From NCBI GenBank assembly GCA_025055295.1, contig JANWWW010000011.1, forward strand, positions 1 through 33,682: a stretch of DNA of 33,682 bases, read 5' to 3'. The position numbers and the translations under genes were made by a program. Below are positions 2,931 through 16,094 of the stretch, piece by piece (the stretch's first letter is position 1; every line of letters starts with the position of its first letter). Source of the DNA: Deltaproteobacteria bacterium. GTDB taxonomy: Bacteria; Bdellovibrionota_C; UBA2361; JANWWW01. The notes below the pieces were generated by a model. The model searched no databases. It was given only the letters and a program-made list of their open reading frames with translations, and was not told where the DNA came from.

Positions 2931-5447
2931 ATGGAATTGAGGAAAGGGCTAGATCTTATTTCCGAACAGCTACTTCTTCTTGATTTAACTAATCCTTATG
3001 ACAGAGAGGAATTTATTGCTTGGCTTCAAAATTTTAAAAGCCAGCAAGGAGAAAAAGAACCCGAGTTACTGAGTCAAATCGACAAATTGCTTGATGAATT
3101 AAAGTGGAACGAAGACCTGTGGAAAAATCCCCACTACATAATTGAGTATTTTTCCAAACAAAAAAGCGAAACAGAAAAAGTTACGAGTTTTGCCGGTGAG
3201 TTTATTGAAAAATATCTTCCGGAACTCGACGAAATGTCTGACTGGATTTCCTCAAAACTGATGGAAGAAGGTTCTTCCCATGAAGAAATCTTGACTAAAC
3301 TTAAGAGGTTCGTCCACACACTTAAGGGCGACGCTGGTTGCGTCGGATTTCACCAATTAGAGAAAAGTTGCCATCTTTTCGAAGAGTTTGTGCTGGGCAA
3401 AAATAACGTTGCAGACATAAGCGACGAGATTTTTAGTTTTCTCTCATATTGCTCAGAGTGTCTCGATGAGTTCAGTAAATCGGGCAAGGTGTTGGATACT
3501 TTGTGGAGTCCCTCAATGTCCTCTCAAACTGGTTCTAAATCGACTTTGAATCCTGATAATTTGGATTTTTCCGTTTTTGGCCCGTCAGCTAATTTAGAAC
3601 TACTTAAAGAACTATTGCATGATCCAGAATATTCAGACCTAATCAAACAGCACTATACAAATTCAAAGACCGGCGACAACAAAAATATTCCAGATCAACG
3701 TCCCGAGAGTCATCCTGCAACTAGTGCTTCCCGCGATACTCAAAAAACAGCTGGTAACGAACATAAGCACTATACACTTGAAGGAGAAATGGAACTATAC
3801 AGCGAATTTATGGCCGAAGCGGAAGACCATCTCGCTGTCATTGAAAGAACAGTCGTTGAAAACCCTGAGAACGAGATTGATTTAATATTCAGGTCTGTTC
3901 ATTCGATCAAAGGAGCATCTGGTTTTTTTAAATTTGAAGAGCTTCAAAATTTGAGCCACTTGCTCGAAAACCTGCTTGACGAGGTTAGAGGATCAAAACG
4001 ACAGTTTTGCGAAAACTTAAAGAGTTGCCTCGCAAATTATGTTGACCTAGCTCGGTTCCTACTGCAGAAAGGCAAAGAGTTTTGGAAGGAACGTACTCCA
4101 ATTGTCTGGAGCGAGCAATCTCTTGACCTATTATCAAGTCTAGAAGCTATCAAGTCTGGTCAATTTGTTGCCTCTGATGTGTTAAAAACCAACATAAACC
4201 CAAAAGAGACTAATACAAATGAAGTTGCCCCGAAGAAAACCGAGAATGAGAAACCTTTCGTGAAAGTCGACACAGTAAGGCTCGATCATTTAATTGACAG
4301 TATTGGTGAAATGTGTATTTACACAAATATGCTTGTAAGGCATGCGCGTTTGCTTCTCAAGGACAACATAGAGGTTTTGGATTTGACCCACCAAGTTGAA
4401 AAGTTTGCTAGGGAGCTTCAAAGCGTTGGTATAGCTCTGAGGCTTGTTCCCATAAAAGGTCTCTTTCAAAAGATGGCCAGATTGGTTTGGGACCTAAGTA
4501 AAAAAACCGGTAAGCAAATCAAATTTGAAATGAAAGGAGAAGAGACGGAATTAGATCGCAATATAATCGAAAAACTCACAGACCCATTACTGCATATGGT
4601 AAGAAACTGCGTAGACCATGGTGTCGAGACTCCCGAAGAGAGACTTGCCAAAGGTAAACCTAGGGAAGGCAAGATAACACTGGAAGCGACACACAAAGGT
4701 GGCACGATTCAGGTAATTCTCAAAGACGATGGCAAGGGATTGGATGAAGAAAAAATTTTGGCCAAGGCCATAGAGAGAGGTCTTGTGTCTAAAGATCAAA
4801 AACTTACCAAAGAAGAGATTTTCTCGTTAATATTTATGCCGGGCTTTTCAACGGCTGAAAAGGTCACGGATCTCTCCGGAAGAGGTGTAGGTATGGATGT
4901 TGTCAAACGAAACGTTTCAGACCTCAGAGGCAGGATTTTGATTGACTCGGAGAAAGATCTTGGTACTAAATTTGTCATTGAACTGCCTTTAACTTTAGCA
5001 ATACTCGACGGCATCTTGTTTAGAATTGAGCAAGAGGTTTACCTTGCGCCAACTTTGGCAGTTGTTGAGATAGTCGATCCTAAAGATGACGTGTTTTTGA
5101 CTGCCGAAAAAGGTTTGACATTCAATTTTCGAGGTCAGTATTTACCATTGTATGATGGGAGTTGTGTTTTCGGTGTAAACAGCTATAGCTCGATCAATTT
5201 GAATCAACTATCTGGCAAAAAAGTCCTGGTTCTTGAAACTGGGGAGGAAAAATTCGCTCTTTTGGTGGATGAAGTTTTGGAAAGCTTCACCACTGTGATC
5301 AAATCAATAGATGCTTTCGTAGGGGTTAGAAAAGGAATATCTGGATGCAGTGTAATGTCCGATGGGAGCATATCTTTAATTGTAGACATCAGGGAAACTT
5401 TGGATTTAGCAAGGGAAAAGGCTAGAGGTATTTTCCAAAATTGCTAA
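2931..5447 (+). CDS. cheA: Chemotaxis histidine kinase CheA with two HPt domains
   Basis: Two HPt motifs (VHTLKGDAG, VHSIKGASG), P3 dimerisation segment, HATPase boxes (LLHMVRNCVDHGVETPEER, LKDDGKGLD, LSGRGVGMDVVK) and a CheW-like C-terminus. Confidence 0.96.
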   Translation: MELRKGLDLISEQLLLLDLTNPYDREEFIAWLQNFKSQQGEKEPELLSQIDKLLDELKWNEDLWKNPHYIIEYFSKQKSETEKVTSFAGEFIEKYLPELDEMSDWISSKLMEEGSSHEEILTKLKRFVHTLKGDAGCVGFHQLEKSCHLFEEFVLGKNNVADISDEIFSFLSYCSECLDEFSKSGKVLDTLWSPSMSSQTGSKSTLNPDNLDFSVFGPSANLELLKELLHDPEYSDLIKQHYTNSKTGDNKNIPDQRPESHPATSASRDTQKTAGNEHKHYTLEGEMELYSEFMAEAEDHLAVIERTVVENPENEIDLIFRSVHSIKGASGFFKFEELQNLSHLLENLLDEVRGSKRQFCENLKSCLANYVDLARFLLQKGKEFWKERTPIVWSEQSLDLLSSLEAIKSGQFVASDVLKTNINPKETNTNEVAPKKTENEKPFVKVDTVRLDHLIDSIGEMCIYTNMLVRHARLLLKDNIEVLDLTHQVEKFARELQSVGIALRLVPIKGLFQKMARLVWDLSKKTGKQIKFEMKGEETELDRNIIEKLTDPLLHMVRNCVDHGVETPEERLAKGKPREGKITLEATHKGGTIQVILKDDGKGLDEEKILAKAIERGLVSKDQKLTKEEIFSLIFMPGFSTAEKVTDLSGRGVGMDVVKRNVSDLRGRILIDSEKDLGTKFVIELPLTLAILDGILFRIEQEVYLAPTLAVVEIVDPKDDVFLTAEKGLTFNFRGQYLPLYDGSCVFGVNSYSSINLNQLSGKKVLVLETGEEKFALLVDEVLESFTTVIKSIDAFVGVRKGISGCSVMSDGSISLIVDIRETLDLAREKARGIFQNC

Positions 5448-6224
5448 ATGACCCATACGCAGGATATTTCCACCTCTGACTTAGAGCGCCTTAAAACTAA
5501 AATACTTGAGGTAACCGGTATTGTATTCGATGAGACTAAAGACCTGCTTTTAACCAACAAAATTCAAAAATTTGGTTTAGCCAAGCAGCTTGCTCCCGGT
5601 CAAGCACTGCAACTTATTCTCGCTGATCCAGATGGATTCGATGAATTCATAAATTTTGTTACGGTGAATCACACTTATTTTTACCGCGAACCAGAGCATT
5701 TCGAGCATCTTTTGGCGTCACTGAAAGAGAATCAATCAAACCCGGTCAAGATCTGGAGTGCGGCGTGTTCGTTTGGGCATGAAGCTTATACAATTGGGAT
5801 AGTGTGCGAAATTGCCGGAAAAAATTACAAAATTTTGGCCACCGACATTGACACAAAAGCGTTAACCGTTGCGAGAAAAGGAGTATATCCTGTAAAGCAA
5901 CTCGCTAAACTGCCAGAACCATTTCGACAATTTTTTACTCATGAAGGAGCACATGCATATGTAAGAGAAAAAATCAAGCAAAATATTCGTTTCGAGTTCC
6001 TTAATCTTGTGAATACCCCGTACCCATTAAAACCCACCTTCGACTATATCTTTTGTCGGAATGTTTTCATATATTTCGAGCATGAACAAAAAATCAAGTG
6101 CCTGAAACATCTGGCCCCTCTTTTAAAGGTAGGCGGATATTTGTACGTTGGAAGAAGTGAATTCATAAACGTAAAAATTGAGGGACTCGAATTCAAAGGA
6201 CATTCGATTTTTCAAAAAGTATGA
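5448..6224 (+). CDS. cheR: Chemotaxis protein methyltransferase CheR
   Basis: NHTYFYREPEHFEHL, IWSAACSFGHEAYTIGI, ATDIDTKALTVARKGVYP, YIFCRNVFIYF. Confidence 0.95.
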   Translation: MTHTQDISTSDLERLKTKILEVTGIVFDETKDLLLTNKIQKFGLAKQLAPGQALQLILADPDGFDEFINFVTVNHTYFYREPEHFEHLLASLKENQSNPVKIWSAACSFGHEAYTIGIVCEIAGKNYKILATDIDTKALTVARKGVYPVKQLAKLPEPFRQFFTHEGAHAYVREKIKQNIRFEFLNLVNTPYPLKPTFDYIFCRNVFIYFEHEQKIKCLKHLAPLLKVGGYLYVGRSEFINVKIEGLEFKGHSIFQKV

Positions 6225-6715
6225 TAACCTACCAAAAAAATACCACTGCGTTAATAAACATAGGGCAATATCGTGTTTGCCATAAAGGTGTGATAATGGT
6301 GGCTCAAAACCTTGGAAGCTGCTTAGGTATGGCGGTTATCGACAGAAACCTAAAACTATTTGGAATGATACACTGCCTTTTGCCTCTATCTTCGTCAGAT
6401 GAGGAAAAAGCCAAAAAAAATCCTGCGCTTTATGTTGACACAGGCGTTCCTCTTCTTCTGGAAGAAATGTTAAGAGAGGGCAGTACAAAATCTGACCTTG
6501 AAATATACATCGCTGGATGTGGTAATTCTGGCAAAGACCTAGATCCATTCGAAATCGGACATCGAAATTACACAGTCTTTCGAAAATTGGCCTGGAAAAA
6601 CGCTCTCTTTACCAAAGGCGAACATGTTGGAGGAGATATGCCGAGAAGTCTCATTCTTGACACGGTCGAGGAAAGGGTCTTTATAAAATTGCCAGATAAA
6701 ACGATTTACTTATAA
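6221..6715 (+). CDS. cheD: Receptor glutamine deamidase CheD
   Basis: LGSCLGMAVIDRNLKLFGMIHCLLP (catalytic Cys/His context) and YVDTGVPLLLEEM; ATGA overlap with cheR. Confidence 0.92.
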   Translation: MITYQKNTTALINIGQYRVCHKGVIMVAQNLGSCLGMAVIDRNLKLFGMIHCLLPLSSSDEEKAKKNPALYVDTGVPLLLEEMLREGSTKSDLEIYIAGCGNSGKDLDPFEIGHRNYTVFRKLAWKNALFTKGEHVGGDMPRSLILDTVEERVFIKLPDKTIYL

Positions 6716-6716
6716 A

Positions 6717-7088
6717 ATGGCGTACAACGTATTGCTTGTCGATGACAGCAGTTTAGCCAGAAAAGTGCTTAGAAGGGCTCTGATCCAGAGTTCTGTTAGC
6801 ATCGGTCAGGTTTACGAGGCTGAAAACGGAAAACAGGCTTTGGAAATACTTGATAATCAGTGGGTTGATTGTGTCTTTTTGGATATCAACATGCCTGTAA
6901 TGACCGGAATTGAATTTGTTGAAGAAGCCAGAAAAAAAGACGAACTACGTGACCTTAAAATAATCGTAGTGTCTACGGAAGGGTCGGAGGAAAGATTGGC
7001 TTACTTGAAAAAGCTTGGAGTTTTGGAAATCGTGAGAAAGCCAATTGCGCCGGAAAAATTAAAAACTGTTTTTGAAAAGATTTTTTAA
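6717..7088 (+). CDS. cheY: Response regulator CheY
   Basis: Single REC domain: VDDSS, DCVFLDINMPVMTGIEF, VVSTEGS, VRKPI; position in che operon. Confidence 0.93.
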   Translation: MAYNVLLVDDSSLARKVLRRALIQSSVSIGQVYEAENGKQALEILDNQWVDCVFLDINMPVMTGIEFVEEARKKDELRDLKIIVVSTEGSEERLAYLKKLGVLEIVRKPIAPEKLKTVFEKIF

Positions 7089-7093
7089 ATGTT

Positions 7094-7531
7094 ATGTACA
7101 TGACAGATTCAAAAAATTTACAGCGCGAAATAGCAAATTTACTTTCTCAATTCGCCTTTATCATTTCAGAACCAATTGAGGGATCTCCGAGTTTGCCAGA
7201 GGGAATAAATGTTATCCAGATTGATTTCTCAGGGCCTCGTTCGGGTGCCGTTCTTGTTCTAACCGATAATGAACTTGGTCAGAAATTATTATCCAATTTG
7301 ATTGATCTTGACAAGGCAAATGATACGGACATAGTTGACGCTTTATGCGAACTGGGGAACATTTTCGCCGGAAATCTCTTGACCCACGTGTACGGTTCCA
7401 GGCAAACCTATGCTTTGAAACCGCCTTCTTGGTACGCGATTAAATCAAAAGATCTTAAAAACTTGGAGGAGTTTAACTTTCTTGAATGTGAAGGCAGTAT
7501 CTTAGGAGTTAGAATTTATGAGTACGATTAA
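7094..7531 (+). CDS. cheX: CheC/CheX-family CheY-P phosphatase
   Basis: DALCELGNIFAGNLLTHVYG matches the E-x-x-N phosphatase helix; located between cheY and cheB. Confidence 0.75.
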   Translation: MYMTDSKNLQREIANLLSQFAFIISEPIEGSPSLPEGINVIQIDFSGPRSGAVLVLTDNELGQKLLSNLIDLDKANDTDIVDALCELGNIFAGNLLTHVYGSRQTYALKPPSWYAIKSKDLKNLEEFNFLECEGSILGVRIYEYD

Positions 7532-8585
7532 AATTCTAATAGTTGACGATAGCGCTTTTGTCCGGCAAACTCTTTCATCTGAACTCTCTAAGCATAAAGA
7601 CTTTGAAATCGTGGGGATGGCAAGCGACCCGTATCAAGCAAGAGACATAATATTAAACTCGGATGGAGTGGATGTTATTCTTCTTGACATCGAAATGCCA
7701 AGGATGGATGGACTTACCTTTTTGTCTAAGCTAATGAAGTTTAAGCCAACCCCTGTTATTGTTGTAAGTTCCCTTGCAAAACACGGCTCGGATGTTGCAT
7801 TTGAGGCTTTAAGGTTAGGAGCGGTGGAAGCTCTTTGCAAGCCTGGCAGCATGTATGCTCTCGGAGACCTTACAGCACAGCTTCCGGAAAAGATACGGGC
7901 TGCAAAATCCGCCGACCTTTCAAAACTCATGGCGAAAATTCAATCCGCCAAACCACTAGGACTTCAAAAAGTGGACACTTCGAGCAAAGTTGTAGCTATA
8001 GGAGCCTCAACTGGAGGCGTGCAAGCACTTGAGTTTATATTAACCTCGCTACCCGAGGGATTTCCGGGAACCCTTATCGTACAACACATGCCACCGGGTT
8101 TTACAAAGTCATTTGCCGACAGATTAGCCAAAATTTGCAGGGTAGACGTTAAAGAGGCCTCAAACGGAGATATTATAACAGCTGGAAAAGTTTTTATAGC
8201 TCCGGGGAATTTCCACATGATTGTGCGAAATTCTGGAGCCCAGCTTTTTTTAGAAATCAAAGAAGGCCCTTTGGTGGCAGGTCATAGACCTAGTGTTGAT
8301 GTTACATTTAAAAGCTTAGCTAAAGCTTGGGGCAGAAACTCAATAGGTGTTTTGCTTACTGGGATGGGCTCTGACGGAGCAGAGGGTTTGTTTCAGCTAA
8401 AGCTCGCTGGATGCCACACAATTTGCCAAGATGAAACAACATGTGTGGTTTTCGGAATGCCTAAACAGGCCATAAATATGGGTGCTGCAACTGAAGTCCT
8501 TCCGCTTGATGTAATACCTAAAAGGCTCATCGAACTTTTGAGCTCTCCCACAATCGAAAAACCACACATTTCAACCAATCCTTGA
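7518..8585 (+). CDS. cheB: Protein-glutamate methylesterase/deamidase CheB
   Basis: REC (VDDSAFVR, VILLDIEMPRMDG) plus esterase motifs GASTGG, QHMPPGFTKSFADRL, GMGSDGAEGL; SD AGGAG upstream. Confidence 0.97.
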   Translation: MSTIKILIVDDSAFVRQTLSSELSKHKDFEIVGMASDPYQARDIILNSDGVDVILLDIEMPRMDGLTFLSKLMKFKPTPVIVVSSLAKHGSDVAFEALRLGAVEALCKPGSMYALGDLTAQLPEKIRAAKSADLSKLMAKIQSAKPLGLQKVDTSSKVVAIGASTGGVQALEFILTSLPEGFPGTLIVQHMPPGFTKSFADRLAKICRVDVKEASNGDIITAGKVFIAPGNFHMIVRNSGAQLFLEIKEGPLVAGHRPSVDVTFKSLAKAWGRNSIGVLLTGMGSDGAEGLFQLKLAGCHTICQDETTCVVFGMPKQAINMGAATEVLPLDVIPKRLIELLSSPTIEKPHISTNP

Positions 8586-9728: not shown

Positions 9729-10169
9729 TTACCAACCACGTTTTTCACTATGATCGTAAACTTGATGGCAAAACCGCTGAGCAGGCATGAAACAACTCCC
9801 GAAGCAAAAGTCTCTTGGCAGACCCCATTCGTCACAATAATACTCGCATACATCCCAGGCGTATCCCCGACAGCTGTCAAAATCTGAAAAACCGGGCCAG
9901 AAAGGCGAAGAGCAAATAAAATTGTAGAACATCAACTGGCGCGCGAACCTACTTATTGCGTTCCTACAAGCCTCTGACTGCCCGTCTTTACATTTTTCAG
10001 TTACTTGTTTTTCAAGTTGACCCAATAAAAATTGATTGATTGTGCAATTCGTCAAAATCATTAAACCAACTCCCATTTGAGGGTTAGCCGGCTCAGAATA
10101 TAAAGAAATTATCATGGTCAGCCACAGGAAAAGTATTCTTCCCATCAACAAACCTTTTAATCGGCTCAT
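9729..10169 (-). CDS. Cys-rich exported protein, 146 aa
   Basis: Signal-peptide-like N-terminus (GRILFLWLTMIISLYSEPA) followed by a mature part with 10 Cys. Confidence 0.6.
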   Translation of the reverse strand: MSRLKGLLMGRILFLWLTMIISLYSEPANPQMGVGLMILTNCTINQFLLGQLEKQVTEKCKDGQSEACRNAISRFARQLMFYNFICSSPFWPGFSDFDSCRGYAWDVCEYYCDEWGLPRDFCFGSCFMPAQRFCHQVYDHSEKRGW

Positions 10170-10695: not shown

Positions 10696-10827
10696 TCACT
10701 CGTTTTCCCTGCCACCGCTTTTTAACATTTTTTCGACTTCAGCTGTTCTCCGTTTTATATCCAAAAAAAGCATTAAAATAATCAACCAAAAAATTACACT
10801 CGCGACTACAAAAATAACATCAGCCAT
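10696..10827 (-). CDS. ccmD: CcmD-like small membrane protein (43 aa, not in supplied ORF track)
   Basis: Manual reverse translation MADVIFVVASVIFWLIILMLFLDIKRRTAEVEKMLKSGGRENE: one TM helix plus a basic/charged tail. Overlaps the ccmC 3' end by 8 nt. Confidence 0.72.
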   Translation of the reverse strand: MADVIFVVASVIFWLIILMLFLDIKRRTAEVEKMLKSGGRENE

Positions 10828-11458
10828 ACATGTAGCAAAATCTTGATTTCTCAATTTTATAAGAAAGTCTCAGACAACTCAAAAACACTGCGAACTGAAA
10901 TAAAATTCCCGAATATAGAGTAAACTCGAACCGCGGGTCCGTTAACCCTCCTCGAGAAATTATTTTTGGGTGAAGTTGAAAGTTTTCAGGCAAAATTTCT
11001 AAAGAGAATTTTACAAAAGGCACGGAAAACAAGCATAAAATCAGTAATGCGTTGTAATAATTGACCGTTGAACGATTTAAGCGAGGTCCCAATAAAGAAG
11101 CCAAGAGAAGCAGCCATAAAATCGTAAATGAAACTAAACGAGGTTCAAAATGAAAGAATGCGTTCCAGGCGTACTTAGCCCATAAGCTGCCAGTTACCAA
11201 GACAATTGTTGCGGAAAAAAACGAAACGCGTAAACACTCTCTTACCAGAACACAGTAACGATAATTTTTTTTTAAGATATATATGAAAAAAGCCACACAG
11301 CCTATTGCTATAAGACCATACGTTACTACAGCAGCTGGAACATGAAGGTAAAAAATTTTCTGAGAATAAGAAAGCGTTGCCTCTGGCGGCGCAAGCGTCA
11401 CTGATACCACAAAAACTATGAAAAGGATGAAACTACTTAAAAGATCTAAGCGAGACAT
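10820..11458 (-). CDS. ccmC: Haem exporter/handling protein CcmC (divergent WWD motif)
   Basis: YLHVPAAVVTYG and GSLWAKYAWNAFFHFEPRLVSFTILWLLLLA align by eye to the CcmC HVPAA and WAKPxWGxWWxWDARLTS regions; operon context. Confidence 0.87.
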   Translation of the reverse strand: MSRLDLLSSFILFIVFVVSVTLAPPEATLSYSQKIFYLHVPAAVVTYGLIAIGCVAFFIYILKKNYRYCVLVRECLRVSFFSATIVLVTGSLWAKYAWNAFFHFEPRLVSFTILWLLLLASLLGPRLNRSTVNYYNALLILCLFSVPFVKFSLEILPENFQLHPKIISRGGLTDPRFEFTLYSGILFQFAVFLSCLRLSYKIEKSRFCYMYG

Positions 11459-12092
11459 AGTTTAAAAAGCCTAGTGAAAATACTATCAAAGCGGACAAAA
11501 TAATGAAATTTTTAATTCCAAATTCTTCAAAATTGGCAAAGGCAACTAAAGTGGAAGTGCCTACAAGCACTACCCCGCCGAGAAATTTTATTAAACTGTC
11601 AGACAGTCGCTCCATATCCCCTAGAGCCAAAGAACAGGATAATAGAACAAGTAACTGAGAGAAAATCAAACTATCAAAAAACACAAAAGTTAATGACCCA
11701 GCAACTACACCACTATTTTTTTCAATTAACGACGACACCAAAAAAATAAACCCTACAAAACAAAAATTTGCGATACAAAAGAACGCACTTAACCCAATTA
11801 GTAAAACATTAACGCTATACCCATTCAATAAAAATATTCTCAACCTTTTTTTCCAATCGGAATACAAAGACCTCCAAAAAATAAGAGTTTTCAGTACAAT
11901 GACGCTAACTAATTTGTACCAGATTGCCACTCTTTGGGCGCAAACAAACGAAACCGGGGTATAGGTATTAAGAAGAGCAAAAATAATGGTCAGATTGATC
12001 GAATACAATGCACACAATTTGATTAAACCAAAGGTTCTTAATTCCTCCCAAAATAACAGTCTACAAACTTTGAACAAGTGACCCATTTTCAA
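11433..12092 (-). CDS. ccmB: CcmB-like ABC transporter membrane subunit
   Basis: Polytopic membrane protein between ccmA and ccmC; weak sequence signature, call rests mainly on context. Confidence 0.7.
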   Translation of the reverse strand: MKMGHLFKVCRLLFWEELRTFGLIKLCALYSINLTIIFALLNTYTPVSFVCAQRVAIWYKLVSVIVLKTLIFWRSLYSDWKKRLRIFLLNGYSVNVLLIGLSAFFCIANFCFVGFIFLVSSLIEKNSGVVAGSLTFVFFDSLIFSQLLVLLSCSLALGDMERLSDSLIKFLGGVVLVGTSTLVAFANFEEFGIKNFIILSALIVFSLGFLNYVSLRSFK

Positions 12093-12621
12093 GCGTAATT
12101 ATACGTTTTGCAAATTGAGAACATCTTACATCTTGACTGACGAACAAAACTTCGCGACCCAGAACGGTTATTTTCTGAAAAATTAACGATAACTTTTCGT
12201 CATCAAGAAAACTAAAACAGTCGTCAATTAAGAGCAATATGTTGTCTTTTGACAAAAAACTAAATATCTCTGAAAAAATCCTTTCACCAAAACTCAATTC
12301 ATCAACACGCTTTTTAAGTAATCCTTTTAATTCTTCTGGCTTTTCGGGCATGTTAAAAATAAAAAGATTTTCATCTAGTGACAAAAAAGAAAAGAAAATC
12401 GGCGCAGCGGATATGTAAACTGGTTTTAGTTTTGTTCTTACAAATCCTTTAAACTCAAGGATACCCGCAATACACATTAAAATGGTTGTTTTTCCCACTC
12501 CATTTCTTCCACGCAACCACAAATGGTCGCCTCTTTTTAGGCACAATCGAACATTTTGCAGAATGGGTTTATCTCCATAAAAAAAAGAGTCAAGAAAAAA
12601 TTCAAGCACATGGGAATTCAC
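12061..12621 (-). CDS. ccmA: CcmA-like ABC ATPase (degenerate motifs)
   Basis: Walker A GRNGVGKTT; LSFGE at the signature; ILLLIDD at Walker B; position before ccmB. Confidence 0.8.
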   Translation of the reverse strand: MNSHVLEFFLDSFFYGDKPILQNVRLCLKRGDHLWLRGRNGVGKTTILMCIAGILEFKGFVRTKLKPVYISAAPIFFSFLSLDENLFIFNMPEKPEELKGLLKKRVDELSFGERIFSEIFSFLSKDNILLLIDDCFSFLDDEKLSLIFQKITVLGREVLFVSQDVRCSQFAKRIITLENGSLVQSL

Positions 12622-12636
12622 TTGTGTTCTTAGACG

Positions 12637-14430
12637 CTACACAGTCAAAACCTTTTTAAGAATGGCTGAAAAAAGAAGACCAATTGTCCCCGACCAGACG
12701 AGCCAAATAAAAGGGCTATAAAATATCTTGACCGCTATCCAATTTTCATTCTCATCTATTTCAACTAGAGCAATGTAAAAATCTCCGAACACACTTTTTT
12801 TTATGTCAACTTCGGCTGTCAGTTGATCTTTTTTAAAATAATACCGGGATGAGGGCCTCAGAACTGAGTCGTTAACATTTACTACCGCCGTCACTTCCTC
12901 AAAAACGCTATTTCGCGCAACTTCTATACCTTTGAAGGTAACATCGTGATAAAACACACGCACTTTTTCATTTTTACGCAGGGTAAGGTTCTTCTCCATT
13001 TTGCGCGAATAGGAAAACATAATGCCGATTGCGATCACTATGAAAAATAGGTGTATTGCAAAAACAAGCATTCTTGAAATGTTTCTAGTCAAACCAATGC
13101 CGGTCAGCAAAAATACGGTGTTAAAAATCATCAGTGAAAGAAATGTTGTCTCCCACACTGTATAGTCCTTTGTCAGAGCTTCACAAAAAATAACAACAAA
13201 TAAAGCCGATACAAAGGAAGCTCCTAAAGCCCGCTTGTTTTTAATAGTACCAGACCAAATACCAATGCCTGCCGGCAAAATCATTAAAAGTGCCCCTACA
13301 TAAGGTAGCGATATACTTTCATAAAAAGGTATGCCTAAGAAAATTTTTTCTTTGAATAAAATTTCTGACAACGGCCCGAAAAGTACACCCCAAATTATCG
13401 ATAGCGCATAAAAAATAAAAACCATCCATTTCAAGAACATTACTTTTTCAAATAGAGATCCCGAGAGAATGCTGAGAATACCCGTATTCGATAAAGCCCA
13501 AACTACATATATAAGGGTAAAATAAACATACCACTGAAGATAATAAGCAACATCGGAGTTCGAAAACGCATGCACAGAAACAACCAAACCGGTTCTGGTC
13601 AAAAATGTCCCCAACACCGTAAAAAAATGCGCAGCTAAAGCGGTCAAAAGAAACAACCCCTTTCTAGTGGTATATTTGTACAAATGGATGTAGGCGGTGT
13701 AAATTAACCAAGGGACAAAAGATGAGTTTTCAACTGGATCCCATGCCCAAAAACCTCCCCACCCTAATTCAATGTAAGCCCAATACCCACCTAACACTAT
13801 TCCTGAAGTTAAACTAATCCATCCGAGAAGCTCCATCCAATCAAGCTTCTTTTTTTCATCTAACGAGAGACTTTTTAGAACTAAATAGATCGATGAGTTC
13901 AGACCAATGTAAGTTAAAACCGGGTGAATAAGCATGTAAAAATTATGAAGAAGCGGATTAAGCCCCAAACCATCAAGTGGTATGGTGCCAAATTCTACGT
14001 ATCTGAATGGATTTGCCGGCCAAACTAGCATAAATGTTAGAAAAACGAGACTTATAAAAAAAAACTCATGGCCCTCTCTAGACTTAAATTTTCTAAGTGC
14101 AACTATTGAAAAAAAAACGTAATTTACAGTCCAAAACAGCAACGAACCCTGCATACCGCTCCACGTTGCAGATATTTTGAAAAGTAAACTCAAACTTTTC
14201 TCGGAATATTGGTAAACGGTTGAAACGTCAAAGCGGTCCGCTATAAACAACCAGACTAGCGACAAATAACTCGCAATTAATAAAACAAAAGTTAAAGCGC
14301 TCGAGATTTCCAGCGTTTTAGTGGCAATAGAATGCTCAACTATAGTCAACCTTCTTAACAAACAGGTTACACTCCCAAAAACAACGATAACGAAACTTGA
14401 AAACAGCAAAATCCAGCCTGTTTCAGCCAC
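12637..14430 (-). CDS. ccmF: Haem lyase subunit CcmF
   Basis: WWD-type motif GGYWAYIELGWGGFWAWDPVENSSFVPWL, NPLLHNFYMLIHPVLTYIG, multiple TMs. Confidence 0.95.
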   Translation of the reverse strand: MAETGWILLFSSFVIVVFGSVTCLLRRLTIVEHSIATKTLEISSALTFVLLIASYLSLVWLFIADRFDVSTVYQYSEKSLSLLFKISATWSGMQGSLLFWTVNYVFFSIVALRKFKSREGHEFFFISLVFLTFMLVWPANPFRYVEFGTIPLDGLGLNPLLHNFYMLIHPVLTYIGLNSSIYLVLKSLSLDEKKKLDWMELLGWISLTSGIVLGGYWAYIELGWGGFWAWDPVENSSFVPWLIYTAYIHLYKYTTRKGLFLLTALAAHFFTVLGTFLTRTGLVVSVHAFSNSDVAYYLQWYVYFTLIYVVWALSNTGILSILSGSLFEKVMFLKWMVFIFYALSIIWGVLFGPLSEILFKEKIFLGIPFYESISLPYVGALLMILPAGIGIWSGTIKNKRALGASFVSALFVVIFCEALTKDYTVWETTFLSLMIFNTVFLLTGIGLTRNISRMLVFAIHLFFIVIAIGIMFSYSRKMEKNLTLRKNEKVRVFYHDVTFKGIEVARNSVFEEVTAVVNVNDSVLRPSSRYYFKKDQLTAEVDIKKSVFGDFYIALVEIDENENWIAVKIFYSPFIWLVWSGTIGLLFSAILKKVLTV

Positions 14431-14854
14431 TTTGACTCGGAAGTTTTAAATCTGGATAGTAGTTCAAGCCGTTCTCCACCGTTACTCTTTTATCATTCGG
14501 CTCATATTTTGAAGGACATTGAGTCAAAACATTGGAAGCTATTAATACACCGTCTACCCAATCGCCATCTACGATGGCTGATACGCCATCCTTAAGGAGT
14601 TCAGGCTTAAAACCCTCATAAACAGTTTTGACAAAATGGCTATTTTCCCCTACCAAATCAAAAGCAAGCGTAAAACCGTCTCGATCATCCACTTTCTTTA
14701 TGTTACGAACCCTGCCTAAAACGCGAATTTTATAAAGACTGAATTGACTAGTCAGATCCTCAGGGCGATAAATTTTTCTTCCCTGTTCGATGCTTTGTAG
14801 GAAAACGTAACTCAAGCCGGCCAACAAAAATCCAAGAAAAAGAAAGCGTAACAT
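14423..14854 (-). CDS. ccmE: Haem chaperone CcmE, CxxxY type
   Basis: N-terminal TM, OB-fold-like core, ASNVLTQCPSKYEPND at the position of the classical HxxxY motif; first gene of the ccm operon. Confidence 0.87.
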   Translation of the reverse strand: MLRFLFLGFLLAGLSYVFLQSIEQGRKIYRPEDLTSQFSLYKIRVLGRVRNIKKVDDRDGFTLAFDLVGENSHFVKTVYEGFKPELLKDGVSAIVDGDWVDGVLIASNVLTQCPSKYEPNDKRVTVENGLNYYPDLKLPSQSG

Positions 14855-14912: not shown

Positions 14913-16094
14913 ATGCGCTTGTTGATATTTTCGATAGGACTTCTATTGTTTCTTGTCCTTTCTGGTTTTTTTATTTTCCATAACCTTAACATCGTCGAGG
15001 TGAAATTCTGGAAAGATTTTCAGATTTCCGCTCCAATTGGAGTTGTAGTCCTCGGAGCATGCGCCATCGGCGTTGGTTTCACGGTTTTATGGTATTTGTG
15101 GGGATCGTTTGTTTCTTACCTAAAACTCAAATCAAAGGATACCGTTATATCTCAGCTTATAGAGCTATATCAAAATACCGTCATACTCAATCAAGCTTTC
15201 ACACTGGGTGAAAAAAGGCTCGCCCAAGATCAAGCCCAAAAGTTGAAATCGCCGGTAAAAGAACTGGAATTTTTTGTAGAGCTTGAAAAAACCAAGATTG
15301 TCACGGATCCCGCAGAGAGAGTCAAGGTTCTTGAGAGCTTGCGATCAAAGTTCCCGACAAATCCTTACCTTGCTTATGAGCTTGTCGTTTCTTTTCTTCG
15401 TTTGGGGCAAGAACAATTGGCGTTTGATCACATTAAAAGTTTTAACCAGATGGTCTCAACCGCAATGTCTTTGAGGTTAGGCGTTGAGTTGGCATTGAAA
15501 CTTGTAAAGCTGGAAGAAGCATCGCAATGGTTGACGGAACTAAAAAAGATTGGTTATGCAGATCATGCTTTACAGCAAAAATATCTGGAACTTAAGGTTG
15601 AGCAATCGTATTTAGAAGGCAAAGATTGGTATTCCGAAACTAAAAGGCTCTTGAAAGATTATCCATACAGTCTTGTAGGTCTTGAGTACATGGCCAAGTA
15701 TTACCAACCGACAAATCCAGTTCTATGCGCGAAATACTATCGTCAACGCGCGGAAGTTGGCAAAAGTCTCCAGTTTTGGCGTGACCTAATTGAATTCCTT
15801 AAAACTGTCGGAAAAATTGAAGACGCCGTAAAAACAGCCAAGGAAGCCATGGAAAAATCAATATCAGTTCAAGATAGATCTTTAGCAAAATTAGATTTAG
15901 TAAGGCTACTGATATCAATAAATAACTGGGCCGAAGCTGAGGAAGTTTTAAATTCTTTTTCAGAGGAAGAATTGTCGGCAACAGCGAATGTGCCGGTTGA
16001 TAGACTTTGTAAATTTTACTCGGCTTTTATCAAAATGAAACGCGGAAGCGCAGTTGAGAGTTTGCGCGTCCTCGACTCAATTTTAGCAGTATGA
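14913..16094 (+). CDS. LapA-like (DUF1049) membrane domain fused to TPR-like repeats
   Basis: Two TM segments with HNLNIVEVKFWKDFQISAPIGVVVLGACAIGVGF (LapA-like), then helical repeats with TPR character. Confidence 0.7.
   Translation: MRLLIFSIGLLLFLVLSGFFIFHNLNIVEVKFWKDFQISAPIGVVVLGACAIGVGFTVLWYLWGSFVSYLKLKSKDTVISQLIELYQNTVILNQAFTLGEKRLAQDQAQKLKSPVKELEFFVELEKTKIVTDPAERVKVLESLRSKFPTNPYLAYELVVSFLRLGQEQLAFDHIKSFNQMVSTAMSLRLGVELALKLVKLEEASQWLTELKKIGYADHALQQKYLELKVEQSYLEGKDWYSETKRLLKDYPYSLVGLEYMAKYYQPTNPVLCAKYYRQRAEVGKSLQFWRDLIEFLKTVGKIEDAVKTAKEAMEKSISVQDRSLAKLDLVRLLISINNWAEAEEVLNSFSEEELSATANVPVDRLCKFYSAFIKMKRGSAVESLRVLDSILAV

Follow-up and report, generated by a model that had tools for sequence, protein, structure and literature searches.

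The CcmE protein encoded in the stretch of DNA analysed here (the window, 33,682 nucleotides) is the known cysteine-type variant in a further lineage, and the organism very probably relies on a System I with cysteine-type CcmE, the kind called System I*, in which CcmH is kept at a separate locus. In E. coli, the haem-binding motif of CcmE is HxxxY, and haem is bound via His. In the window this position is held by Cys113, and the gene and its motif were located as follows.

14423..14854, minus strand: ccmE, cysteine type (CxxxY), 143 aa; identified by Pfam PF03100 and by alignment with solved CcmE structures.
14504..14518, minus strand: CPSKY motif, Cys113 (haem-attachment position) to Tyr117; read from the sequence and invariant in 24/24 homologues.

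The ccmE ORF scored 49.1 bits against PF03100 (curated cut-off 24.6) and was found by a genome-wide search to be the single CcmE of the source genome. Its haem-attachment stretch reads LTQCPSKYEP, with the Cys113 codon at 14516-14518 and the Tyr117 codon at 14504-14506. When a profile of the 24 homologues was aligned with solved CcmE chains, Cys113 fell onto the His of HDENY of E. coli and Shewanella, and the Desulfovibrio-type structure 2kct showed the same cysteine motif, LMTKCP. No His is adjacent to Cys113. The class count covered the source genome and its class relatives, 35 of which have CcmE, and CPSKY was present in every one (35/35); together with its invariance among the 24 aligned homologues, this rules out chance or sequencing error for Cys113. 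The proposals of the initial annotation that Cys replaces the haem-binding His in LTQCPSKYEP and that this CcmE is of the CxxxY, System I* type are thus borne out by the alignment.

CcmE of the cysteine type was described between 2006 and 2011, and CPSKY was given in a 2011 review as its majority motif, found in 25 of 36 variant genomes (PMC3601427). The peptide [LM]T[QK]CPSKY occurs in at least 588 stretches of a public genome collection; among those listed, 483 encode a CcmE relative, and the best 80 of these 483 include Ignavibacteria, Desulfovibrio, Desulfosporosinus, Bacillus, Coriobacteria and others. The finding is therefore an ordinary one, since the variant had been described, is universal in the relatives, and the "missing" ccmH lies elsewhere in the genome.

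The ccmE gene heads a compact ccmE-F-A-B-C operon on the minus strand that extends from 14854 down to 10820; neighbouring genes overlap or lie no more than 16 bp apart, and a ccmD-like ORF accompanies the operon. The remaining genes of the cluster are given below.

12637..14430, minus strand: ccmF, 597 aa; Pfam Cytochrom_C_asm 77.3 bits, CcmF_C 73.1 bits.
12061..12621, minus strand: ccmA, ABC ATPase; Pfam ABC_tran 41 bits, and alignment with sister and class genomes.
11433..12092, minus strand: putative ccmB; named solely from its position and its membrane character, with position and size matched in the sister genome G001.
10820..11458, minus strand: ccmC; Pfam 64.9 bits, NCBIfam ccmC 65.6 bits, the latter below the curated cut-off of 186.
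10696..10827, minus strand: ccmD-like ORF, 43 aa; read from the sequence, with an ORF at the same position in sister and class genomes.

Of the System I core, CcmA, CcmC, CcmE and CcmF were thus recognised by profile, and CcmB and CcmD by position only; the putative CcmB gave no Pfam or NCBIfam match. The 43-aa ORF gave no Pfam CcmD match, but its position argues that it is probably ccmD: its start overlaps the ccmC stop (TATGGCTGA), it encodes one transmembrane stretch followed by a charged tail, and both class relatives and the sister genome (MADIVFLLSSLTFWIIILIYLSR...) have a counterpart at the same position. The ccmF and ccmE genes overlap by 8 bp, and the WWD motif of CcmF, GGFWAWDP, is intact. 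Next to the operon and divergent from ccmE, an ORF at 14913-16094 on the plus strand encodes a LapA-like domain fused to TPR repeats and is conserved in G001; its assignment as CcmI was considered and is not supported, as a LapA-type domain with TPR repeats was found and no CcmI match was obtained with Pfam or NCBIfam. On the other side, 650 bp downstream of ccmC, the minus strand encodes at 9729-10169 a small cysteine-rich protein, probably secreted, for which Pfam gave no family match.

Two proteins of the cluster depart from their usual motifs. CcmC keeps both His-containing stretches in the source genome, and its WWD motif is degenerate, reading WNAFFHFEPR against WGxxWxWDPR in most others compared; in the sister the motif is WNTFFSFEPR and the first His stretch is lost (YLKLG, as against YFHV in the others). 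In CcmA, Walker A is intact, Walker B reads LLLIDDC (IDD for DE, so that the catalytic Glu is missing) and the H-loop His is replaced by Gln; in the alignment the Walker B and H-loop changes are common to both family members and absent in genome G003. These observations on family motifs rest on two draft genomes, the source and G001. From the degenerate WWD of CcmC and the altered catalytic residues of CcmA it follows that the efficiency of the system could be low. The same changes, the loss of the first His in the sister and the small genome (a draft of 1.76 Mb, split over 139 contigs and 85% complete) would also be expected of a ccm cluster that is decaying under relaxed selection in a shrinking genome and works poorly. 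That reading is nevertheless highly improbable, as every reading frame is uninterrupted and the genes overlap tightly, the gene order is the same in a sister whose CcmE is only 42% identical, the changes are common to the sister and partly to the class, and CXXCH clients are retained, among them a monohaem protein with CSQCH and a subunit II of cytochrome oxidase that carries two CNACH domains. The idea that the loss of the CcmC WWD motif is specific to the family was likewise rejected: a class-wide drift was observed (WNTWFRWEPR, WNTYFRFEPR, WNTPFSFEPR), of which the family is the extreme, and WEPR is seen elsewhere.

Neither ccmG nor ccmH was found within the ccm cluster by Pfam, by NCBIfam or in the gene list of the locus, as the initial annotation had stated. 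Its extension of this absence to a System I* free of CcmG and CcmH held for the locus and failed, as regards CcmH, for the genome, where a search, whose detection of either gene had been set beforehand as counting against the claim, located ccmH on a separate contig.

L084:4751-5116 (genome contig C51), plus strand: CcmH with SPFCPGRSLADC in place of LRCxxC; motif compared by alignment with 2kw0.

This gene (G000:C51:15810-16097) scored 44.5 bits, and 45.3 bits in a further comparison, against PF03918, for which the curated cut-off is 25, so that "CcmH missing" is wrong at the genome level. Its neighbours on the contig are a Ser/Thr kinase and an HD-type hydrolase, which also surround ccmH in the sister, the only relative in the family and one with the same ccm gene order; across the class, an ORF with protein-kinase motifs adjoins ccmH in about a third of the loci. 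For CcmG, there is a candidate only, a TlpA/ResA-like periplasmic thioredoxin on contig C78 with a lipoprotein-like N-terminus and WCASC, which has a relative in the sister (37% identity) and matches the DsbE family weakly (26.3 bits, cut-off 123); that it serves as CcmG is a guess. A full-length DsbD with CEETC and WCLTC is encoded on contig C82.

These findings bear on whether the organism has a strict System I* as in Desulfovibrio and works without CcmH and CcmG. The CxxxY CcmE and a cluster lacking both genes would suit such a system, which is yet very improbable here: CcmH exceeds the curated cut-off in the source genome and in the sister, it occurs in 32 of the 35 CcmE-bearing class genomes, a TlpA-like thioredoxin and DsbD are encoded, and the expectation of a genome without CcmH fails on the gene at C51:15810-16097. 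From the 32/35 co-occurrence it was concluded instead that a detached ccmH is the normal state of the lineage, the records of such relatives being labelled Bdellovibrionales, Oligoflexia, Deltaproteobacteria or Dadabacteria. It has been reported that CcmH is found in about one third of genomes with cysteine-type CcmE and that its absence is not a defining feature of these systems (PMC3601427). The former figure agrees with our sample of genomes carrying [LM]T[QK]CPSKY, in which CcmH was over the cut-off in 14 of 37, several class relatives being included in the sample.

The redox motif of E. coli CcmH is LRCxxC. This pair is not found in the CcmH of the source genome: aligned to its E. coli counterpart (2kw0), the protein has Ser at the first Cys position, retains the second Cys and carries a new one 8 residues on. 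SPFCPGxxLxDC replaces LRCxxC in 34/34 class CcmH sequences read, and further Cys patterns were seen in CcmH of other phyla. A strict pairing of cysteine-type CcmE with rearranged CcmH was rejected, because a Gemmatimonadales genome (G090) whose CcmE has CPSKY encodes a CcmH with the normal CPVC, so that the rearrangement is not tied to the cysteine type. It is possible, if rather unlikely, that the partners of the cysteine-type CcmE have been remodelled in the source family, namely a CcmC with WNxFFxFEPR (which in the sister also lacks the first His stretch) and a CcmH in which a widely spaced Cys pair has taken the place of CxxC; if true, haem loading and the handling of apocytochromes could follow a route that is biochemically distinct.

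For the favoured System I with cysteine-type CcmE and detached CcmH, a mechanism can be proposed by analogy with the work on M. acetivorans and Desulfovibrio, the only cases in which covalent haem on the CcmE Cys is known (PMC9084895, PMC3601427); in M. acetivorans the Cys is required for haem attachment, and C120H is no substitute (PMC9084895). CcmAB and CcmCD would load haem on CcmE, where a covalent bond to Cys113 would be formed and Tyr117 might serve as an iron ligand. CcmF, probably together with the CcmH encoded elsewhere, would then pass the haem to the CXXCH motifs of apocytochromes, which would be held reduced by DsbD and the TlpA/ResA-like thioredoxin.

The system resembles the Desulfovibrio System I* (Goddard et al. 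2010; Allen et al. 2006, via PMC3601427) in its CPSKY-type CcmE and, with CcmB and CcmD assigned by position, in its ccmABCDEF core, but differs in that the source genome has CcmH, DsbD and a TlpA-like thioredoxin. It also resembles the bacteria, about one third of those with cysteine-type CcmE, that keep CcmH and a CPSKY CcmE in one genome (PMC3601427), although here ccmH is detached from the ccm cluster and its active site is SPFCPGxxLxDC. The archaeal Ccm of M. acetivorans shares the CXXXY CcmE, whereas CcmD, CcmH and CcmI are lacking in archaea and CcmF is split in M. acetivorans (PMC9084895). Classical System I of E. coli has homologous CcmA, C, E, F and H, from which the present proteins differ in the Cys of CcmE (E. 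coli HxxxY) and in the Ser at the first Cys of CcmH (E. coli LRCxxC). No mechanism is changed by the CcmE finding; what is added is a lineage, with relatives labelled Bdellovibrionales, Oligoflexia and Deltaproteobacteria, in which cysteine-type CcmE with detached ccmH is the rule, and which lends support to the published view that cysteine-type systems are not defined by a lack of CcmH. It also cautions that genes absent from one locus should not be called missing. Elsewhere in the window, a run of chemotaxis genes was observed at 2931-8585 on the plus strand, which encodes CheD and a CheA-like kinase that carries two Hpt domains, together with CheR- and CheB-like ORFs recognised by eye.
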